64,000 bases of DNA. Origin: Bacillota bacterium. Lineage in GTDB: Bacteria; Bacillota; DSM-12270; Thermacetogeniales; Thermacetogeniaceae. Both the position numbers and the translations under genes were made by a program. This document shows, in pieces, positions 18,739 through 46,256 of this stretch. The notes beneath the pieces were generated by a model. The model saw only the letters and a program-made list of their open reading frames with translations, made no database searches and was not told the DNA's origin. How positions within the stretch are numbered: position 1 is the stretch's first letter; every line of letters begins with the position of its first letter. The stretch covers positions 62,001-126,000 of the forward strand of contig JABLXW010000011.1 in the NCBI GenBank assembly GCA_013177945.1, read 5' to 3'.

Positions 18739-19038
18739 TTGCCGGCACCAAGTAGTCGGTATACGTGGCAAGATGATCTTCAAGTCAATCCCAATACGGG
18801 TACTCTAGATGGCTATTTTTATCCCTGCTATTTCAATCTGACTAGTCAGCAGGGCGTTTTGCATTATGGAGAATCATATGGTTGCGGGGCCAGCAAAGTA
18901 AGTCTTGGTGTTAACATGTTAACGTTAGTTGACCAACGGGGGATTTGGCCCCGAGACCAGACTTCTTTAGTATTCTTATGGAAGCATAATCGTGGGGGGA
19001 GGGGTTATGCCCTATGTCGACATGGAGAACGTCTTTAA
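18739..19038 (+). CDS. Unrecognised small open reading frame upstream of the giant gene
   Basis: Open frame of 99 aa starting at TTG and ending 25 bases inside the next gene. It contains YTWQDDLQVNPNTGTLDGYF, YPCYFNLTSQQGVLHYGESYG and CGASKVSLGVNMLTL, which look more protein-like than a random frame, but I recognise no family, and no good ribosome site precedes it. It could be a small cotranscribed protein, the tail of a decayed gene, or leader RNA read by chance. Its composition matches the AT-richer island. Confidence 0.3.
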   Translation: MPAPSSRYTWQDDLQVNPNTGTLDGYFYPCYFNLTSQQGVLHYGESYGCGASKVSLGVNMLTLVDQRGIWPRDQTSLVFLWKHNRGGRGYALCRHGERL

Positions 19039-22000
19039 TTCTGCTAACCCTTGTTTGTATCCTTGCCGTTGCTGGTTTTTGCTTTTCGGTTGAGCCTTTG
19101 CAAGCAGCGATATCGGAGAGCCCGAGTGTTACTTACCCATCCAATGGTGCTTATGTAGAACCGGGCAGTGTTACCATCAGGTGGAATCCTGTGGCTGGCG
19201 CCTCCAGCTACGGGATTGGAGTGGTTGACGATACGATTGGCGTAAAGATTGTCAATGTTGATTTTGGGATTGCCGGTACAAGCTACACAATCTCGTCATC
19301 ATTGATTAAAGCAGGTCACAGCTACCGTTACTCGGTGGGGGCCATTGCGGCCGATGGGACTCAGAAGTGGGTTGAGAATCTTACTTTCCGGGTGAAAAAT
19401 CCGACACTTACGGCTCCGATAATAACTTATCCATCCAATGGTGCTTATGTAGAACCGGGCAGTGTCACGATTAGATGGACCGGTGTTAGCGGCGCAACAA
19501 CATATTTGCTTGCCTTTAAGGATTTAACTTCCGGGATGAAGTACCTTGATGACCAGGATGTTGGGAACAGAACGAGCTATACTATTTCAACGGGTCTAAT
19601 CATGCCAGGCCACAGCTATAAGATCGCACTTTGCGCCAAAAACGATGCTGAAGAAAAATGGACCGAATCCACGTTCAGCATCAAAGAAATAGCGGTAAAA
19701 AGCTTAACGCCTCCGGTGATTTACAGCCCGCGCAATGGTGAGACCCTGGAGGACCCGGGAAGCGTAACGGTAAGGTGGAGTAGCGTAGACGGTGCCACGA
19801 AGTACCTGATCGCGGTTATGGACATTACGGATGGAGATAAGTTTGTGAATGACCAGGATATCGGCACCAGCACCAGCTACACCATACCTTCCTACCGCAT
19901 TAAACCCGGACACAAGTACAAGATCGCCGTATGTGCCCGGAATGAGCGTGAGGAAAAGTGGACGGAGGCAACGTTCAGTATAAAGGCCAGTGAAGATACT
20001 ACTCCGCCCAGAATAAGCGGGTTTTCCGGACGGTTGGAGGTCGAGCAGGGCCAGAGCGTGAGCCTGCCGGGCACCATCACTTCCAGTACCAACATCACCA
20101 AGGTAACCATTGGAGTTTGGGGTTACCAGGACAACTACGCTTCCAAGTACCCGAACAGCAAGACGTTTAGCATGAGCAGCTTCGTGATCAACACATCGTC
20201 CGGACTCTTTTCGCAGCCGGGCGAGTACGTGCTCACCGTCTGGGCTAGCTCAGTGGGCTGTCCAAATCCGGAGAGGGAACTGGGTCGGATGACGCTGGTT
20301 GTGAGGGAAACACGGCCGTCGGGGCCGCAAGCCCCACCGGTAATAATCAGCCCGACAAACGGGGGCACCTACGAAAAGGGCGACATCAGTATAAGGTGGA
20401 GCGCCGTCTCCGGTGCCACACACTACGTTGTAGCCGTCCTCGACGTGACCAGTGGTCAGAAGATCGTTAACGACGAGAACGTCGGCAGCCGGACTAGTTA
20501 TACGTTGAGGGAATCACTGCTTACTGCAGGGCACCGGTACAAGATAGGTGTGGGCGCCGTCGGCAACGGAGTTGAAAAGTGGAACACTGATACTTACATC
20601 ACCGTTCGAGATGTACCTGCCGTTGATACTACTCCGCCCAGAATAAGCGGGTTTTCCGGACGGTTGGAGGTCGAGCAGGGCCAGAGCGTGAGCCTGCCGG
20701 GCACCATCACTTCCAGTACCAACATCACCAAGGTAACCATTGGAGTTTGGGGTTACCAGGACAACTACGCTTCCAAGTACCCGAACAGCAAGACGTTTAG
20801 CATGAGCAGCTTCGTGATCAACACATCGTCCGGACTCTTTTCGCAGCCGGGCGAGTACGTGCTCACCGTCTGGGCTAGCTCAGTGGGCTGTCCAAATCCG
20901 GAGAGGGAACTGGGTCGGATGACGCTGGTCGTTCGTGAGCCCAAAGTTCTTCTGGCGAAGCCTGTGATCAAATACCCGGGGAACGGCGAAACGCTTAAGA
21001 AGGATAGCCTTACAGTACGCTGGGACAGCGTACCAGGGGCAGCCAGCTATGGGATCGGTGTATGGGATATCACCACGGATGAGAAGATTGTGGATATCGG
21101 AAACGGCTGGAAGCAGACCAGCTATACAATTCCTTCGGCAAAGCTGGAAGAGGGTCATTCCTACAAGATAGCGGTAGGGGCAATTTCCGCTGACGGCAAA
21201 ACGGAAAACTGGAATGATGAAGGGATCAGGGTAACCATAGCGAAGCCGGAGGTGCCTGTGCTAACCGGTTTCCCCGCTGCTGATCAGGTAATTGCGGGCG
21301 ACAAATACACATTCAAGGGTAGAATAACCTGTAAGAGCAAGCTGACTAAAGTGACAATAAATCTCCGCGGTCAGTCCGGTGATTTATGGTCGAGGCAGAT
21401 CTCCACCGATACTTTTGACCTCAGCAGCGTCACTGTGGATACGTCACAGGGAATCCTGGCTTATCCGGGAACTTACATCATCAACGTTTGGGCCGCGACC
21501 GCGGACTGGCAGCCGACAGAGCCTTTGAAATCCATGACCTTAACCGTCAAGGCGCCTTCTCCACCGGCCCTGAAAGGCTTTCCAGCCAACCAGACACGCA
21601 CCATTACATTAGGCGACACCTACAGCCTCGAAGGGTATCTGACCGCGGATTGTCCCATAACAAGAGTAAACGCTGTCGTTATTGGAGCAAACACCCTTTC
21701 TGGAATTAAGGAGATAGCGGAAGAGCTTCAGGGCAGCATCAAGACCTATAACCTTAACAGACTTAAGATCGATACAAAACTACCCGAATTCTCTGCAGCT
21801 AAAAGATACGAAATACGCCTATGGGCGAAAACTGAGCGCTTCCAAAACCCCGAAGTTCCGTTAGCTATCATGTGGCTGGAAGTCAAGCTTGGGGATGCTC
21901 CGCAGATAGAAAATCTCCCAAACAGTGTGGATGTACTCAAGGGAGAAACATATAGGATTCGGGGAAGAGTTGTTTCTCAATCCGATCTCACAAAAGTAAC

Positions 22001-24584
22001 AGCTATTATGAAACCGAAGGATCATGCTGGCGCTCTCGGAACCTTTGCTCCCAAAATCTTCACGGAGGAAATAAAGGATAGCCAAAAGACATTTGACTTA
22101 AGCAAATTTGAAATTGATACCGGGTCATTGCTAAGCGGCGCCTATACGATAGACATCTATGCCAAGTCAATTGCCAACAATGTGGCTGAAGCGCCGCTCG
22201 GCACTATGGTGCTTAACGTAAAGAGTGTGCTTCCGCCGACGATAAAGGATTTTGAACAGTACAGAAGGATCACTGTTGGTGAAGAATATACCTTAAAGGG
22301 GATAATAACCTCTACATCCACTTTGACAAAAGTCACCGCCCAAATAGCGGGCGATGCTAGCAGCGTACAATCTCGTGACAACCTGAATACCAAGAACTAT
22401 TCCTTAAACACCTTTACTTTTAAGCCTGATAAACCTGGTATTTACCTGGTAGAGGTCTGGGCTGCAACAAAATATCTTGGCAAACCTACGGAGCCTATCG
22501 GACAGATGATTCTTGATGTCAGGCCTAAAAACGAACTCCTAGGTCCTAATAACAACGTGAACGGTTACAAGGTTTTTGGTTTCCCGTTAAACAAGAGAAT
22601 AGAGTTGTTCACGGGAGAAACTTACTGTTTCCAGGGAATGCTTTATTCCGATACGCCGTTGTATTTAGTCAACCTGAAGATTAGTGGTCCTCAAGGTAAC
22701 GGCATTGACAATGATGCCTTCAGGCAGGATGTCAAAGGTAACGTTTTTGACTTCAGGAAGTACCAGTTCGCGGCCCTTGACAGGTTTGCCGTGCCGGGAG
22801 ATTACAAAATCGATCTCTGGGCGAGTGCTGAAGGCAAGCAGCCGGAGATGCTTGGTAGCTGTACTATAACCGTTAAGTCCCCGACAAAATGGATCGACGG
22901 CCCCAGGTATCTTGATGAGCGAGACGAAGTCTATGTGTCGCTAGAGGTTGATGAAGGCATAAAGAAGAACGGTACGTACCCGATCATAGCCGTAAGGATA
23001 TTCGAATTCAACGGGGATGAAGAGATCGGCTATTACACTTTGAATCAGGTGAAGGATAACCATTTTGAAAGGTATATACCGGCAACAGAATTGAGGCGGT
23101 CTTCGAGCCAGGCCAGGACTCTCAGGTTTAACATCATGGTTGATGGGTACGATCCCTGGTATGCGAAGGTCAACCCGAATCCCAAACATGTGAAGACTCT
23201 GACAGTGCCTGAAGCAAAGTGGCGCATCCCCGTAGGGGGCCAGCAATTTAAGGCCTCAGCAACCTCGGACTACCTGGTTGTAAATGTTCCGACTAACCAC
23301 AAACTGCCCTCCAGTTACAAAGTATGCATGGGAGTAAGTGCGGACAACAAAACGTGGAAAGAGTACCCGATTCCGGCAAAAGGCAATACGTATTTCTCAC
23401 ATTCCTATCGTTTAGGCGATCTGGGTCTTCAAAGGGGAAGCAGCTATTATTTCCGTGCGACTATCTACGGCCCGAATAACGTCGTCATCGATCAAACGAA
23501 GCCTCAATCCGTACTGATTCCCACAAAACCCGTTGTTCAATCTCCGCAGCCAATGAACACAACGCCTCAAGGGCAGAAGTTGGATCCATCCCGAGTTGAA
23601 AGCTGGGTTAAGAAGGTAACCAAGGATATAGAAACCTTCAGGAGTTGGGGCATTCGCACCGAGTATCCCTCTATCAACAGGCTTTTGTCTAAGGGTAGTA
23701 ACATCACACCAGAAGAATTTGATGTCTTGATGAGAGCAAGCTCTGCATACAGCTCGATTAAGACCATGTGGTACGAAAATGCGATGAGCTTTTCGGAAGA
23801 AGTTGGACAGAGTAGTGAAGAACTGATTAAATCGCTGGTCTTCGATCTAGTGGTCGTTAAGATGCTAAAGAAGATGAATACCGCTTTACCTAAGAGCGCT
23901 CAAGAAAGGATCAATGCTGTTGAGCGGGAGCTTGAGAACACCCTAAAGGAAATAGTTGGTAAGTTAGATGGATGGGGCGTGGTTATTGAGGGTGAGCGCG
24001 TATCTAAGGCTGTAGATAAGTTTATCTTGTTTATAGAAAAGAAAGTTGCATCAGGTCTATATAATCAGGCTGAAGAGGCAATAGAGAATTATCTCGCAGA
24101 TGGGCATAGCATTATTGGTCGAGCAGTTTTTAATGCAAATGCAAGACCAACGTTTGAGGCAGTTCTTAAGGAAATTGACCAATATGTTGGCAAGTACAGC
24201 AATCCATCCTCGCATAAGGCACTGATTGACAGAGTTTCCGCTGAACAATCGCTGGATCGCTGGACCATTAAGGAAGCGAACGACTACTATGCTGCTAAGA
24301 AGGATGTCATATGGACTAGAGGCATTAAGGATATCTTTAAGACGACGAAGGATACGTTGGACCTTGGTGTTGTAGCTTCTCTTGCTGTAACCCCGGCTAC
24401 GGCTGGTGCCTCTGGTGGCTTAGCAGGTATTCTTGAAGCTCTAAGTCTTGGCTGTAAAGCTGGATCATACTTCAGTAATGCTATCTCAGGAGGAAAAGGA
24501 TTTGTTGCTCTGCGCGAAACCCTAAAAAGCCTTCGTGAGGTTCCCGGTATTGTTTTCGCTGATGAGAAAGGTATGCAGCACTAA
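19014..24584 (+). CDS. Giant secreted multi-repeat protein (1856 aa)
   Basis: A signal peptide (SLILLTLVCILAVAGFCF, cleavage probably after LQAA near residue 32) exports it. Then two kinds of beta-sandwich-like repeats alternate. Type A (about 95 aa, with SNGAYVEPGSVTIRW, AG.SY and GHSYK..VGA) occurs five times, starting near 37, 130, 231, 437 and 646, and looks like a fibronectin-III/Ig fold. Type B (about 100 aa, GF...V..G....L.G.I.S...ITKVT......YP..Y...VWA) occurs seven times from near 327 to 1289; copies at 327 and 537 are identical. A further beta-rich part (1290-1520) leads to a helical domain (1523-1856) with a Gly/Ala-rich hydrophobic stretch around TPATAGASGGLAGILEALSL. I see no LPXTG, SLH or other anchor. 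It may be an adhesin, matrix protein or effector carrier; function unknown. Confidence 0.8.
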   Translation: MSTWRTSLILLTLVCILAVAGFCFSVEPLQAAISESPSVTYPSNGAYVEPGSVTIRWNPVAGASSYGIGVVDDTIGVKIVNVDFGIAGTSYTISSSLIKAGHSYRYSVGAIAADGTQKWVENLTFRVKNPTLTAPIITYPSNGAYVEPGSVTIRWTGVSGATTYLLAFKDLTSGMKYLDDQDVGNRTSYTISTGLIMPGHSYKIALCAKNDAEEKWTESTFSIKEIAVKSLTPPVIYSPRNGETLEDPGSVTVRWSSVDGATKYLIAVMDITDGDKFVNDQDIGTSTSYTIPSYRIKPGHKYKIAVCARNEREEKWTEATFSIKASEDTTPPRISGFSGRLEVEQGQSVSLPGTITSSTNITKVTIGVWGYQDNYASKYPNSKTFSMSSFVINTSSGLFSQPGEYVLTVWASSVGCPNPERELGRMTLVVRETRPSGPQAPPVIISPTNGGTYEKGDISIRWSAVSGATHYVVAVLDVTSGQKIVNDENVGSRTSYTLRESLLTAGHRYKIGVGAVGNGVEKWNTDTYITVRDVPAVDTTPPRISGFSGRLEVEQGQSVSLPGTITSSTNITKVTIGVWGYQDNYASKYPNSKTFSMSSFVINTSSGLFSQPGEYVLTVWASSVGCPNPERELGRMTLVVREPKVLLAKPVIKYPGNGETLKKDSLTVRWDSVPGAASYGIGVWDITTDEKIVDIGNGWKQTSYTIPSAKLEEGHSYKIAVGAISADGKTENWNDEGIRVTIAKPEVPVLTGFPAADQVIAGDKYTFKGRITCKSKLTKVTINLRGQSGDLWSRQISTDTFDLSSVTVDTSQGILAYPGTYIINVWAATADWQPTEPLKSMTLTVKAPSPPALKGFPANQTRTITLGDTYSLEGYLTADCPITRVNAVVIGANTLSGIKEIAEELQGSIKTYNLNRLKIDTKLPEFSAAKRYEIRLWAKTERFQNPEVPLAIMWLEVKLGDAPQIENLPNSVDVLKGETYRIRGRVVSQSDLTKVTAIMKPKDHAGALGTFAPKIFTEEIKDSQKTFDLSKFEIDTGSLLSGAYTIDIYAKSIANNVAEAPLGTMVLNVKSVLPPTIKDFEQYRRITVGEEYTLKGIITSTSTLTKVTAQIAGDASSVQSRDNLNTKNYSLNTFTFKPDKPGIYLVEVWAATKYLGKPTEPIGQMILDVRPKNELLGPNNNVNGYKVFGFPLNKRIELFTGETYCFQGMLYSDTPLYLVNLKISGPQGNGIDNDAFRQDVKGNVFDFRKYQFAALDRFAVPGDYKIDLWASAEGKQPEMLGSCTITVKSPTKWIDGPRYLDERDEVYVSLEVDEGIKKNGTYPIIAVRIFEFNGDEEIGYYTLNQVKDNHFERYIPATELRRSSSQARTLRFNIMVDGYDPWYAKVNPNPKHVKTLTVPEAKWRIPVGGQQFKASATSDYLVVNVPTNHKLPSSYKVCMGVSADNKTWKEYPIPAKGNTYFSHSYRLGDLGLQRGSSYYFRATIYGPNNVVIDQTKPQSVLIPTKPVVQSPQPMNTTPQGQKLDPSRVESWVKKVTKDIETFRSWGIRTEYPSINRLLSKGSNITPEEFDVLMRASSAYSSIKTMWYENAMSFSEEVGQSSEELIKSLVFDLVVVKMLKKMNTALPKSAQERINAVERELENTLKEIVGKLDGWGVVIEGERVSKAVDKFILFIEKKVASGLYNQAEEAIENYLADGHSIIGRAVFNANARPTFEAVLKEIDQYVGKYSNPSSHKALIDRVSAEQSLDRWTIKEANDYYAAKKDVIWTRGIKDIFKTTKDTLDLGVVASLAVTPATAGASGGLAGILEALSLGCKAGSYFSNAISGGKGFVALRETLKSLREVPGIVFADEKGMQH
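19995..20299 (+). repeat. 305-base direct repeat, copy 1
   Basis: Identical, base for base, to 20625-20929 (offset 630). It encodes one type-B domain of the giant protein, beginning at DTTPPRISGFSG. The identity stops abruptly within the codons after TLV. Confidence 0.95.
20625..20929 (+). repeat. 305-base direct repeat, copy 2
   Basis: Second copy of the sequence at 19995-20299, in the same reading frame. Other type-B repeats in this gene are strongly diverged, so this pair reflects a recent duplication or gene conversion. Confidence 0.95.
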
Positions 24585-26049: not shown

Positions 26050-26370
26050 TTGAAAAAAAACGTTGTTAAGTTACTTACTTTAGTTGTGTTATTCGGAGTG
26101 TTGACCATGATCACGGGTTGCGATGGAGGAAACAGCAAGTTCATGGGTAATTGGGTTCAAGTGGACGACCCATCAGCATGGATGAAAATTTATAAGAACG
26201 GGGAAGCGATTATAGTGGATTGCGGTGATGGTAAGTTCCCGGCGACATTCAAGGATGGTTTGTTGCATATTAGTATGGGCTTTGGAGAGGTAACTGCATT
26301 TTATGATGAAAAGTCTGACGAAATGGTTCTTACTGGTTTTGGCAAGTCCTACCGGTTTAAACGCAAATAA
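26050..26370 (+). CDS. Small predicted lipoprotein (106 aa)
   Basis: TTG start preceded by GGAGGGG. The signal peptide KKNVVKLLTLVVLFGVLTMITGC ends in lipobox MITGC. The mature part, about 80 residues, has GNWVQVDDPSAWMKIYKNGEA and TFKDGLLHIS, a pattern common to small extracellular beta-barrel lipoproteins of the lipocalin-like or DUF-type that bind a ligand; no specific family can be named. A good terminator follows at 26427. Confidence 0.65.
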   Translation: MKKNVVKLLTLVVLFGVLTMITGCDGGNSKFMGNWVQVDDPSAWMKIYKNGEAIIVDCGDGKFPATFKDGLLHISMGFGEVTAFYDEKSDEMVLTGFGKSYRFKRK

Positions 26371-26426: not shown

Positions 26427-26458
26427 CCTCCCACATTGTATGTTGTGGGAGGTTTTTT
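26427..26458 (+). terminator. Rho-independent terminator after the small lipoprotein
   Basis: Stem CCTCCCACA / TGTGGGAGG, eight-base loop, followed by TTTTTT. It separates the lipoprotein genes from the signalling genes. Confidence 0.9.
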
Positions 26459-26663
26459 GTTATGGTTAGCCATCGGGCCACCCAACAGCATAAATATTTA
26501 TCTGATGATTTATCTGATGGCAGCAGAAAATGCCGTTAACCTTCAGGTTAGCGGATGTTCTTAACAGCCATATTTGACGCCCGTAATTACGGGATTTTGG
26601 TGTCAATACCCGGTTTTCTTGAAACAAGAAGGATTTTTTTCGGCTGTGCAGAATACTTCCGGT

Positions 26664-27530
26664 ATGCAAATTGTCAGGAAATTAGCACCATTACAAAAGA
26701 GCACCCCTCTCCTGCTCGCAGCCATCCAGTTTGTCTTGCTGTTGGCGGCGTTCCTGGTTTTTGTTTCTAACACTCCTGCAGTCAGCGAAAGCATCTTGAA
26801 GCAGAAGATCGTTTTTGGCTGCCTTGCGCTAAGCATAGTACTGAGCTTATTGGTGGGCCGGAGGCTGATAGCTGTTTCTCGTCGAGAAGCGGATCTGGCC
26901 CTCAAGGAGGCCATGGCGGAACACAAACAGAAGATTGTCCAGACGATGGACTTTCAAAACAGGGACTTCCTTGAACACGTAGAGCGGATCTCAGACTTAT
27001 TGGATAGCGGGCAGATCAGCGAACTGAGAGATTACCTGGAATGTGTTTCCAATAAAGTCACCCGTCTTAACGACATCATCCAGGTCGACAACCCCATCAT
27101 CGGCGCTCTTCTTAAAAGCAAGCTGGCCGAAGCTGATATTCGCGGAATCCGACTGGATATCGAAATCGATGTTTCCCTGGCCAGGCTGGGCCAGGATTCA
27201 CCTGCCCTGGCCAGGATCATGGGCAACCTCATCGACAACGCTTTTGACGCCGTTCTTTCCGGGGAGGAGTACCAGAAAACTGTTTCTGCCAGGCTCTTCC
27301 GGACCGGACCCTTGCTGCAGTTGGAGGTCTGCAACAGGGGGCCTGTTATCCCCGAAGAAGAATTAGGACTGATTTTTGAGGCGGGGTATACCCGAAAGGG
27401 AGAAGGGCACAGCGGTTTGGGGCTCCACATAGTTAAGACTTTGACTGAAGAATTGTCAGGCGTAGTCAGGGTCTCATCAGATGAGACGAATGGAACCAGA
27501 TTCACGGTAATGATCCCTGTAAAGCATTAA
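26664..27530 (+). CDS. Spo0B/LytS-type sensor kinase lacking the phosphoacceptor His
   Basis: Membrane protein of 288 aa with two transmembrane helices (about residues 17-35 and 49-65), a short dimerisation segment and a C-terminal HATPase domain. The ATP-binding motifs are intact: NLIDNAFDAV (N box), FEAGYTRKG and GHSGLGLHIVK (G boxes). In the dimerisation segment, the family pattern QRHDFxNH is replaced by QNRDFLEH, so Arg100 sits where the phosphorylated His belongs. The start is uncertain: ATG 26664 fits the first helix, GTG 26646 is also possible. LytTR regulator follows after 50 bases. It may have become a phosphatase or act on a partner's His in trans (see 28514). Confidence 0.75.
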   Translation: MQIVRKLAPLQKSTPLLLAAIQFVLLLAAFLVFVSNTPAVSESILKQKIVFGCLALSIVLSLLVGRRLIAVSRREADLALKEAMAEHKQKIVQTMDFQNRDFLEHVERISDLLDSGQISELRDYLECVSNKVTRLNDIIQVDNPIIGALLKSKLAEADIRGIRLDIEIDVSLARLGQDSPALARIMGNLIDNAFDAVLSGEEYQKTVSARLFRTGPLLQLEVCNRGPVIPEEELGLIFEAGYTRKGEGHSGLGLHIVKTLTEELSGVVRVSSDETNGTRFTVMIPVKH

Positions 27531-27580
27531 GGCGGCCAATCATAAAATGGGTTTCCGGGAAGTTTGGAGGGCACAACGGG

Positions 27581-28345
27581 ATGTCCACCACCTGTTTCAG
27601 AGTTGTCGTTGCCGATGACGATGAACCCGTCTGCAATCTGGTCAAAAGCTACCTGAGTTCGTTTGAGGAAGTAGAAGTAGTAGGAATTGCCTTAAATGGT
27701 GAAGAGCTTCTGACGCTCGCCAGGGAAAAGAAACCTGATGCCCTGTTCGTAGATATACAAATGCCCGGCCTGGATGGGCTGTCGGTGGTTTATGCTTTGC
27801 AGCAGGAATTTCCAAACCTGTTCGTAGTTTTTATAAGTGCCTACCCCAGGTATGCCGTTGAGGCCTTTAATCTCGATGCCACCGACTTTATCATGAAACC
27901 TGTCACCCGCGACAGGCTGGCTAAAGCGTTAGCAAAGCTGAAGCGGTTCAGCCATTTCGCCGCTGCACACCGCGGAATCAACAACTCCGTCACAAGAGAT
28001 GGCAGTCAAGAACGGCTGCTGCTTAAGCTGGGTCACGGGGCAATCCTGATAAACAAAAGCACCATCTTTTTCATTGAAAAGCAGGGCAAGAAGTCCATCA
28101 TTCACACCACGCGGGGCCGGTACGAAACACCTCATTCCCTGGCCGACCTGGAGAAATCCCTGTCGGAACCTGAATTTTTCCGCTGCCACAAAAGCTTTAT
28201 CATTAACACCCGGATGGTCGAGCGAATAACACCATACGCGGACAGGAGCTACGAGGTTAGTTTTTACAGCTACTCCGAGAAGGTCACAATGCGCCGGGAG
28301 AAGTTTGAGGAGTTCTGCAGCCTGCTGAACAAACTTGGCAAGTAA
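27581..28345 (+). CDS. LytTR-family response regulator
   Basis: Protein of 254 aa. The N-terminal receiver domain has VVVADDDEPV (acidic pocket), ALFVDIQMPGLDG (phosphoacceptor Asp) and FISAYPRYAVEAF, then KPV with the conserved Lys. The C-terminal LytTR DNA-binding domain has INKSTIFFIEKQGKKSIIHT, LADLEKSL and FFRCHKSFIINTRMVERI, all typical. Such regulators control extracellular or surface functions in many Firmicutes. GGAGG lies 10 bases before ATG 27581. Target promoters cannot be assigned from sequence alone; those of the neighbouring surface genes are reasonable candidates. Confidence 0.92.
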   Translation: MSTTCFRVVVADDDEPVCNLVKSYLSSFEEVEVVGIALNGEELLTLAREKKPDALFVDIQMPGLDGLSVVYALQQEFPNLFVVFISAYPRYAVEAFNLDATDFIMKPVTRDRLAKALAKLKRFSHFAAAHRGINNSVTRDGSQERLLLKLGHGAILINKSTIFFIEKQGKKSIIHTTRGRYETPHSLADLEKSLSEPEFFRCHKSFIINTRMVERITPYADRSYEVSFYSYSEKVTMRREKFEEFCSLLNKLGK

Positions 28346-28513
28346 TAATGGAGAGGGCCGTCCCTAATCTGGTTCTAAGCTGCGGCGCTCAAGCGATTGC
28401 TCCTGCAAAGAGGAGTCAGATCAGATGCCAATCTCTATATAGATGCACCATAGATGCACCGTTACAGTTGGCCTTGAGTAATAGAGAATCACGTAAATGC
28501 GAGAAGCGCGCAG
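28346..28513. other. Gap between response regulator and membrane His-protein
   Basis: No supported gene. It contains ATAGATGCACC twice in direct tandem (28438-28459). The second copy is followed by GTTACAGTTGG. This may be a regulator site, but the match to LytTR sites is too weak to call. Confidence 0.35.
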
Positions 28514-29392
28514 GTGGTATTTGATTTGGCGGATCCAGGTTTCATCGATGTATTGGTAAGGTTCTTTACTGTGTTATTGAGCACTGCGGTTTTGTTGCCC
28601 TTTACCCTGATGCTGGTGGGGTACGATATTTGGGGGAACAGAAGAATAACTTTTTTGCTGGTTATGCTGGAATCCGCCCTCTGGACTTTTACCTTCTATT
28701 TGCCTCAGGCGCTACGCGCCGTCTTAAACGAGTTGATTTTGTTCGCCGGTTTTAAGTGGGGGTTAGGATTCCGTACCGCCCGTTCCTTTGCGGCTCTTAT
28801 CGTTTTTCACATCGTAGTGACACTTCCGGCAGACTTAATAGCCTGGATTGTCTTTCTATATGCCTTTCACATTTCGCCGGCGGAATTCTATACCTCGCAT
28901 ACCTTACAACTCCTTTATCCCTGGACCTTTGTTCCGGTTTATGTCCTGCTGATTTATATTGGGTACCGGAGGGGCTGGTGTATTTTTCGGGAAGTCAGTC
29001 ATTTTAAACTAAAAGCCGGCTTACTGGCCATCCCCTTTGTTCAGTTATTGCTTCTTTACATAGTTGTTGCGGAAGATATGGGAAACCCGCATTTTCGGAT
29101 GGATGCTGCAAGTCCGGTAGCCATTGCCTACATCCTTGTTGCTTTAGCTGTAGCGGTAAGCCTGTATTCTCTTTGGAGAACATTTCAATATGCTGGCCGG
29201 GAAGCATTCATTCAGGCCCAAGAAAAGGCAGCCCTTGAGATGGAGGACCGCGTTAATGCGATCCGGGCGCAGCGCCACGACTTCATCAACCATATCCAGA
29301 TCCTCTTGGCCCTTCTCCAGGAAAACCGCATCCCGGAGATGAGAGATTATCTAAAAAGCTTCCGGTTCGAAACAGAGGCACCGCCCAACTGA
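28514..29392 (+). CDS. Membrane protein with kinase dimerisation/His motif but no ATPase domain
   Basis: Protein of 292 aa: five or six hydrophobic segments in residues 12-230, resembling the sensor part of AgrC/LytS-like kinases, then a Spo0B-type helix pair, NAIRAQRHDFINHIQILLALLQ, with the phosphoacceptor His255 intact. It then stops after RDYLKSFRFETEAPPN, exactly where the ATP-binding domain should begin; I see no continuation in other frames. So this is either a truncated kinase or a separate His-phosphotransfer membrane partner. The GTG start (ribosome site GAGAAG) is uncertain. Together with 26664 it makes a complementary pair around the LytTR regulator. Confidence 0.7.
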   Translation: MVFDLADPGFIDVLVRFFTVLLSTAVLLPFTLMLVGYDIWGNRRITFLLVMLESALWTFTFYLPQALRAVLNELILFAGFKWGLGFRTARSFAALIVFHIVVTLPADLIAWIVFLYAFHISPAEFYTSHTLQLLYPWTFVPVYVLLIYIGYRRGWCIFREVSHFKLKAGLLAIPFVQLLLLYIVVAEDMGNPHFRMDAASPVAIAYILVALAVAVSLYSLWRTFQYAGREAFIQAQEKAALEMEDRVNAIRAQRHDFINHIQILLALLQENRIPEMRDYLKSFRFETEAPPN

Positions 29393-29457
29393 GGTGGCCG
29401 ATCACAGCTGCTCTTTAAATATCCATGCAATTCTTTTGTCAAACCAGGAGAGTTTCT

Positions 29458-30333
29458 ATGTCGTTAAATAAGGGGAACAATAAAGGGGACAAAAATCTTC
29501 GGGCAAGGCACACAGCAAGTGCGCAAGAAGGCTTTGGCCGCCTGGACGGCAGGACGTGGCTCCGTTATTCCATCAGCATTTGGGACGATCTGGCAAAAAC
29601 CCCTCAGGAGCGGCGGCTCGGCCACCCCGCGAGCTTCCCCCTCGCCTTGACGGACCGCCTGATCCAGATCTTCTATCAAAAAGGCCGGGGCTATGTGCTG
29701 GACCCCTTTTTGGGGAGCGGGAGCACGGTCTGCTCCGCCTACCGCTTCGGAATTCCCTCAGTAGGATTTGAGCTTGCCCCCGAATTTTTGGCGATAGCAC
29801 GCCGGAGGCTGGCGGAAATCCCGGGGCCGGCGTCTGCCTACCCCAGGCTGATTCAGGCCGATGCCCGGCGCCTCCTGCAGTATCTGGAGCCTGCCAGCGC
29901 CGGCCTCTGCCTCACCTCCCCCCCTTACTGGAATATTCTGGAGCAGCGCCGCTCGGCGGACGGAAAGGCGCCCAGGAACTACGGCAGCCATCCCGGGGAT
30001 TTGGGCAGGATCGCGGACTATGGGGAATTTCTTGAGGCCCTGGGGGAGGTGTTCGGCCAGGTCCTGGAGTGCCTCCTGCCGGGGGCCTACTGCCTTGTTG
30101 TGGTCATGGACCTGAGAAAGGGAGCAAAATTTTATCCCTTCCACATGGATTTCGCCCTCCTGATGAACAGGATCGGCTTTGTGCTGGACGACCTTGTGAT
30201 CTGGGACAGGCGGCGGGAGTACAACAACCTGCGCCCTCTGGGCTACCCCCGCGTTTTTCGCATCAACAAGATCCACGAGTTCATCCTGATCTTTCAGAAG
30301 CCGGCTCCGCCGCAAGACCGGCAGCGCCCTTGA
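29458..30333 (+). CDS. Solitary DNA methyltransferase (amino-MTase fold, order X-I-IV)
   Basis: SAM-dependent DNA amino-methyltransferase of 291 aa. The sequence runs HPASFPLALTDRLIQIF (motif X-like), YVLDPFLGSGSTVCSA (motif I, SAM), VGFELAPEFLAIARRRL (motif II), then SPPYWNIL with TSPPY (motif IV catalytic) near residue 155. So the SAM-binding half precedes the catalytic half. The target-recognition part may be the segment after motif IV. TSPPY is seen in both N6-adenine and N4-cytosine enzymes, so the base is not assignable. No restriction enzyme is adjacent. AGGAGAG 6 bases before ATG 29458 decides the start. It marks the return to high GC. Confidence 0.85.
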   Translation: MSLNKGNNKGDKNLRARHTASAQEGFGRLDGRTWLRYSISIWDDLAKTPQERRLGHPASFPLALTDRLIQIFYQKGRGYVLDPFLGSGSTVCSAYRFGIPSVGFELAPEFLAIARRRLAEIPGPASAYPRLIQADARRLLQYLEPASAGLCLTSPPYWNILEQRRSADGKAPRNYGSHPGDLGRIADYGEFLEALGEVFGQVLECLLPGAYCLVVVMDLRKGAKFYPFHMDFALLMNRIGFVLDDLVIWDRRREYNNLRPLGYPRVFRINKIHEFILIFQKPAPPQDRQRP

Positions 30334-46159: not shown

Positions 46160-46256
46160 GGGAGCGGATTGTGCCTGGTGGTGCGCCTGGACTTCAAATC
46201 CAGCGGGAGGCATGACGAGTGTCTCCGGTGGGTTCGATTCCCACACGCTCCCGCCA
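46160..46256 (+). tRNA. selC: tRNA-Sec (anticodon UCA)
   Basis: Folds as selenocysteine tRNA: anticodon arm CTGGA-CTTCAAA-TCCAG with TCA anticodon, a long variable arm (GGGAGGCATGACGAGTGTCTCC), T arm GTGGG-TTCGATT-CCCAC, and encoded CCA (46254-46256). The 97-base length and long extra arm are right for Sec. The acceptor has seven Watson-Crick pairs (GGGAGCG/CGCTCCC), the eighth position being G46167 opposite A46245, instead of the usual eight pairs. It is the substrate of SelA and SelB encoded at 37.3-40.6 kb. Confidence 0.95.

Follow-up and report, generated by a model that had tools for sequence, protein, structure and literature searches.

A probable split histidine kinase of the AgrC/SPOB type, with phosphoacceptor and ATPase encoded by separate genes around a LytTR regulator

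Can two neighboring genes, each lacking what the other retains, together encode one histidine kinase? This question is raised by a locus in a 64,000-nucleotide stretch of DNA from a Bacillota bacterium (the whole of which is referred to here as the window; it lies on contig C11, in a genome of 2.7 Mb), where three genes, here denoted K, RR and S, lie on the plus strand with RR between K and S. A sequence-only reading had proposed that the first protein carries a complete ATP-binding domain with an arginine in place of the phosphoacceptor histidine, that the third is a membrane sensor with a QRHDFINH motif that ends before any ATPase domain, and that a LytTR regulator separates the two; our analysis bears out each of these statements. 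The features of the locus are as follows.

26427-26466, plus strand: terminator-like hairpin and T run, CCTCCCACATTGTATGTTGTGGGAGGTTTTTT, read by eye, between the upstream gene and K-RR-S
26664-27530, plus strand: K, the proposed catalytic subunit, defined by its ORF and Pfam matches; an alternative upstream TTG start at 26574 is possible
26961-26963, plus strand: codon AGG of K, encoding Arg100 at the phosphoacceptor position (QNRDFLEH)
27581-28345, plus strand: RR, with a receiver (REC) and a LytTR DNA-binding domain (Pfam Response_reg and LytTR); Asp58 is the expected phosphoacceptor
28514-29392, plus strand: S, the proposed sensor and phosphoacceptor subunit, with seven predicted transmembrane helices, a DHp hairpin and no CA domain
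29276-29278, plus strand: codon CAC of S, encoding His255 (QRHDFINH), which also fits the HDxxN/T phosphatase motif

In the K protein, a pair of hydrophobic helices at the N-terminus is followed by a DHp-like hairpin and then by a GHKL ATPase (CA) domain, which is intact; the protein matches HATPase_c with 69 bits and also HATPase_c_5, and its SPOB_a match of 17 bits lies under the cut-off of that family. The AlphaFold2 model of K (mean pLDDT 77) includes the hairpin as well as a complete CA fold, and a Foldseek comparison with solved structures returned histidine kinases, with DivL (the second hit) and AgrC among the best. The phosphoacceptor histidine is absent from all 11 K proteins, being replaced by Arg in four, Gln in four, Glu in two and Thr in one (families f1, f111, f128 and f149), and the Asn of the HDxxN motif is lost as well. 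The ATP-binding residues N188, D191, N192, G241, G251 and G253 are invariant across K, and HATPase_c was matched by 10 of the 10 K proteins scanned; substitutes that vary by lineage are what would be expected once the histidine is no longer needed. About 90 other SPOB-type kinases from the loci keep the histidine, with one exception, a Tyr in G316. In addition, K forms a single clade (SH-aLRT 100), and the family is sharply bounded, since no K protein falls below 417 bits against the K profile, the next kinase in the other class searched scores 185 and the best non-K protein in the phylum sample scores 222. The K clade, together with the control kinases, rules out a chance or scattered loss of the histidine.

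The S protein presents the opposite arrangement. Its SPOB_a match has 38.7 bits (profile positions 8-48 of 62); no ATPase family was matched in Pfam at E<=1, and no ATPase remnant was found when the sequence downstream of S was searched. In the AlphaFold2 model of S (mean pLDDT 78), seven TM-type helices are followed by a long helix (residues 201-269) carrying His255 and by a short second helix (273-288, about 16 residues), after which nothing follows; Foldseek found no usable match to this model among solved structures. The Q-R-H-D residues are kept in 13 of 13 aligned S proteins, each with a complete HDxxN motif (HDFIN, HDLIN or HDFNN), with a C-terminus 29-42 residues past the histidine and with no match to an ATPase family (Pfam, E<=1). 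The dN/dS ratios of S are 0.225 between the window and G009, 0.218 and 0.155 between orthologues in f111, and about 0.25 between tandem copies, and these values indicate that S is under purifying selection and is not a pseudogene. A simple truncation of S is ruled out by this selection together with an ending conserved in relatives. The anatomy of the two proteins implies that neither K nor S can autophosphorylate in the ordinary way.

Several observations concern the surroundings of the cassette. A gene for an N4/N6 DNA methylase (29425-30333, plus strand) starts 33 bp past S in the window and is absent beside S in G009. Upstream, 19014-24584 (plus strand) encodes a repetitive surface-type protein of 1856 aa with Fn3/Ig-like matches, in which a segment of about 100 residues is present twice, nearly unchanged; several relatives, like the window, have large surface proteins (SLH, Ig-like, Fn3) encoded close to the cassette, which gives a weak hint to its role. 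Close to the cassette, the window (26050-26370) and G409 (L203:220-651) have putative small lipoprotein genes that look alike, their products being, by appearance, short, of a "GxW" type and lipocalin-like. The window also carries a tRNA-Sec gene with anticodon TCA (46160-46256, plus strand), so the organism probably makes selenoproteins. A scan with the usual two-repeat consensus found no convincing LytTR binding site near the cassette, and no AgrB or AgrD gene was seen among the ORFs listed around it, a list in which very short peptide genes are not systematically covered. Among the other SPOB kinases of the genome to which the window belongs (G000), those at L001:1024-3165 (minus strand) and L002:447-2802 (plus strand), on C7 and C13, have a separate membrane-sensor ORF before a 2TM-DHp-CA kinase with a normal histidine, and an AgrB-like gene follows the kinase at L002.

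The division between K and S is kept in about ten other genomes. A near-identical cassette (92-93%) is present in G009 (DULK01000021), which belongs to another genus of the same family, and more distant copies are carried by a Pelotomaculum MAG (PtaB.Bin013, L063) and by a group of genomes that belong to one other class; the paired losses are seen in genomes of five families. Across K-RR-S, dS between the window and G009 is only 0.05-0.13 despite the difference in genus, and the copy in G009 has transposase-type genes on its flanks, so a recent horizontal transfer is possible. The gene order is K-RR-S in the window, RR-K-S or RR-K-S-S in f111, and S divergent from RR-K in f128, and this shuffling without loss of K or S argues for a functional link. 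RR adjoins K or S in most loci.

When 133 genomes were searched for both genes, 10 contained K and S, one contained only K, three contained only S and 119 contained neither (Fisher p about 9e-12, with genomes treated as independent and shared ancestry uncorrected). Homologues with the same losses, the co-occurrence of which the sequence-only reading had put forward as its check, were therefore found together in 10 of 11 genomes with K and in 10 of 13 with S. The same reading would have taken an Arg-type kinase standing alone elsewhere as a sign of a fortuitous pairing, and homologues of S that continue into an ATPase domain as a sign of truncation. Neither sign was seen: in the one K-only genome (G409), the 3.6 kb contig with RR and K stops 62-66 bp past RR, where relatives carry S, and none of the 13 aligned S proteins continues into an ATPase domain. 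The only S-like match in the other class that does so, from G434, is an ordinary unsplit kinase with an RR of its own next to it. In the S-only genomes, S is broken by frame breaks and has an IS3-like tail (G010), has its N-terminal part replaced by a transposase-like frame (G489) or lies at a contig edge (G467), as expected if S were useless without K. A second S in G455 is also broken.

Full-length 7TM-DHp-CA kinases that have the histidine and lie directly beside an RR (in G022 and G224), plus G316, form the sister group of K. In a tree of the short segment shared by the two proteins, K and S are each monophyletic (support 96 and 95), and their grouping together receives a support of 71 after gene fragments are removed and is rejected when the fragments are left outside the group; this lends weak support to the view that K and S may be sister paralogues. 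The simplest history would be one in which a full kinase was duplicated, after which one copy lost its histidine and its sensor and the other lost its ATPase. A tandem pair of full-length 7TM kinases with complementary defects was observed in G316 (C1, L207:4028-6789, minus strand), one with QKYDF (Tyr for His) and an intact CA domain and the other with QRHDF and a ruined CA domain. No regulator was found next to this pair in the stretch read, and a search of its class for pairs of this kind returned G316 alone; as a single case, it illustrates what a reciprocal-loss intermediate could look like.

Taking these observations together, we consider it likely that K-RR-S is an obligate split histidine kinase system of the AgrC/SPOB type. 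We propose a model whereby S would serve as both membrane sensor and phosphoacceptor and K as a membrane-anchored ATPase subunit unable to phosphorylate itself, the DHp hairpins of the two proteins combining into a hetero-oligomeric bundle. Upon sensing of a signal by S, the CA domain of K would phosphorylate His255 of S in trans, and phosphorylated S would hand its phosphoryl group on to the LytTR regulator, at Asp58; with its HDxxN motif, S may also dephosphorylate RR when it is not engaged with K. Judged by its motifs, the system would rank, under the criteria that Amin, Porter and Soyer set out (PMC3591291), as a bifunctional split kinase, and the paired division looks like a deliberate two-part switch rather than a damaged gene. 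Three points count against parts of this model: the short second DHp helix predicted for S makes the proposed geometry of a K-S bundle less certain, the weak conservation of the first helical part of K reduces certainty about the K-S contact, and ordinary SPOB kinases in these genomes might phosphorylate S.

The last point leads to the strongest alternative, in which S would be a membrane-bound phosphotransferase or phosphatase resembling Spo0B and charged by another kinase or regulator, with K as a pseudokinase that tunes S or RR allosterically. Like Spo0B, S keeps a DHp histidine without an active ATPase, the genome has other complete SPOB kinases that might charge it, and pseudokinases can act without phosphorylating themselves, as DivL and evolved ChrS do (PMC9491836). 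However, the ATP-binding boxes of K are invariant, for which a pseudokinase with a purely structural role would have no need, no third kinase is conserved in a cassette whose regulator mostly lies beside K or S, and S is a 7TM sensor, which Spo0B is not; we regard this alternative as unlikely. Less probable still is an inhibitory heteromer, in which S would repress or divert K, and the substrate of K would be some other protein or a different residue in the regulator system. Inhibitory kinase heteromers are known in RetS-GacS and RetS-PA1611 (PMC12189002), but the H-D-x-x-N motif is complete in every S copy and the DHp of K itself offers no phosphoacceptor, and we give this explanation little credence. 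The decay of a truncated sensor kinase beside an inactivated one, to which the broken copies elsewhere (G010, G489 and the second S of G455) and the small frame change between the C-terminal tails of S in the window and in G009 might point, was already disfavored and is highly improbable given the dN/dS of 0.155-0.225 between S orthologues, the identical losses across five families and the invariance of both the QRHD histidine of S and the CA boxes of K.

Returning to a split kinase formed by K and S, the tandem copies of S raise the possibility of a broader arrangement. Two genomes of f111 (G286 and G452) have two S copies per K, the membrane parts of which are 40-45% identical and the DHp tails 87-89% identical; the two S copies of G406 have DHp tails that are only 48% identical. 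The homogeneous DHp tails suggest, from the alignments, that they are held to one partner, and gene conversion could be an alternative explanation for their match. As several genomes have two S genes with different membrane parts, one K may serve several sensors. We tentatively suggest, at somewhat less than even chances, that K is a hub kinase, in which one histidine-less K powers several interchangeable S proteins that have diverged inputs and homogenized DHp tails and that all signal to one LytTR regulator, and for which the unsplit pair of G316 would represent a reciprocal-loss intermediate.

Split histidine kinases are a recognized concept: EnvZ can be split in vitro, and counts of domains, in which 3.66% of HisKA proteins are without an ATPase domain, have led to the prediction that split sensor kinases occur naturally; modeling presents them as a route to ultrasensitivity and bistability and predicts that the bifunctional type allows both (PMC3591291). 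The characterized example in that work, and the only one with a biochemical description in the literature covered, is a chemotaxis kinase, CheA3/CheA4. Thus, the statement of the sequence-only reading that no established family is known to be built in this way stands in a narrower form: our search of the open-access literature, subscription journals lying outside it, turned up no conserved split kinase of the AgrC type with a membrane sensor and reciprocal losses, but the general idea of a split kinase was already established. The "bipartite histidine kinase" of PMC4053972 is an ordinary H/ATP domain pair and not a split kinase. The present locus, in which ATPase and phosphoacceptor lie on different genes and the reciprocal losses recur in relatives, identifies a conserved membrane-sensor case with a dedicated partner and makes the idea directly testable; it also offers a clean example of complementary loss after gene duplication, and K/S modules could be ready-made AND-gate parts for synthetic signaling.

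Among known systems, AgrC/HPK10 shares the 7TM-like sensor, the SPOB_a/DHp hairpin, the GHKL ATPase and the LytTR regulator, and the nearest unsplit relatives (G022, G224 and G117) are of this type and lie beside an RR; however, AgrC holds the histidine and the CA domain on one polypeptide, whereas here S lacks the CA domain and K lacks the histidine. Spo0B resembles S in its DHp hairpin of the same Pfam family, its phosphorylatable histidine and its lack of kinase activity, but it is a soluble protein that retains a degenerate ATPase-like domain and acts in the Spo0F-Spo0A relay, whereas S, a 7TM sensor, has a dedicated ATPase subunit as its partner. The spo0B gene lies between those for L27 and ObgE (PMC6136694), and S, a membrane protein beside a LytTR regulator, is not Spo0B by location. 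DivL is similar to K in combining a DHp with an intact ATPase fold and in having the histidine replaced, by Tyr in DivL; it acts by modulating CckA, a complete kinase, and its ATPase domain is dispensable (as cited in PMC9491836), whereas the ATPase of K is conserved and its conserved partner S has no CA domain. The closest functional parallel is provided by CheA3/CheA4 of Rhodobacter sphaeroides, in which CheA4 phosphorylates CheA3 in trans (PMC3591291). In that pair, as in K and S, the histidine and the catalytic domain reside on separate proteins; neither CheA protein phosphorylates itself, the catalytic one acts in trans and the histidine protein is also a phosphatase, and the same properties are proposed for K and S. 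The CheA pair differs in being cytoplasmic, of the CheA class and divided by outright removal of a separate P1 domain, whereas K and S would constitute a membrane sensor kinase in which both subunits retain the DHp hairpin, one of them in degenerate form. The best explanation of the locus is that it functions as CheA3/CheA4 does while belonging by its sequence to the AgrC/SPOB class.
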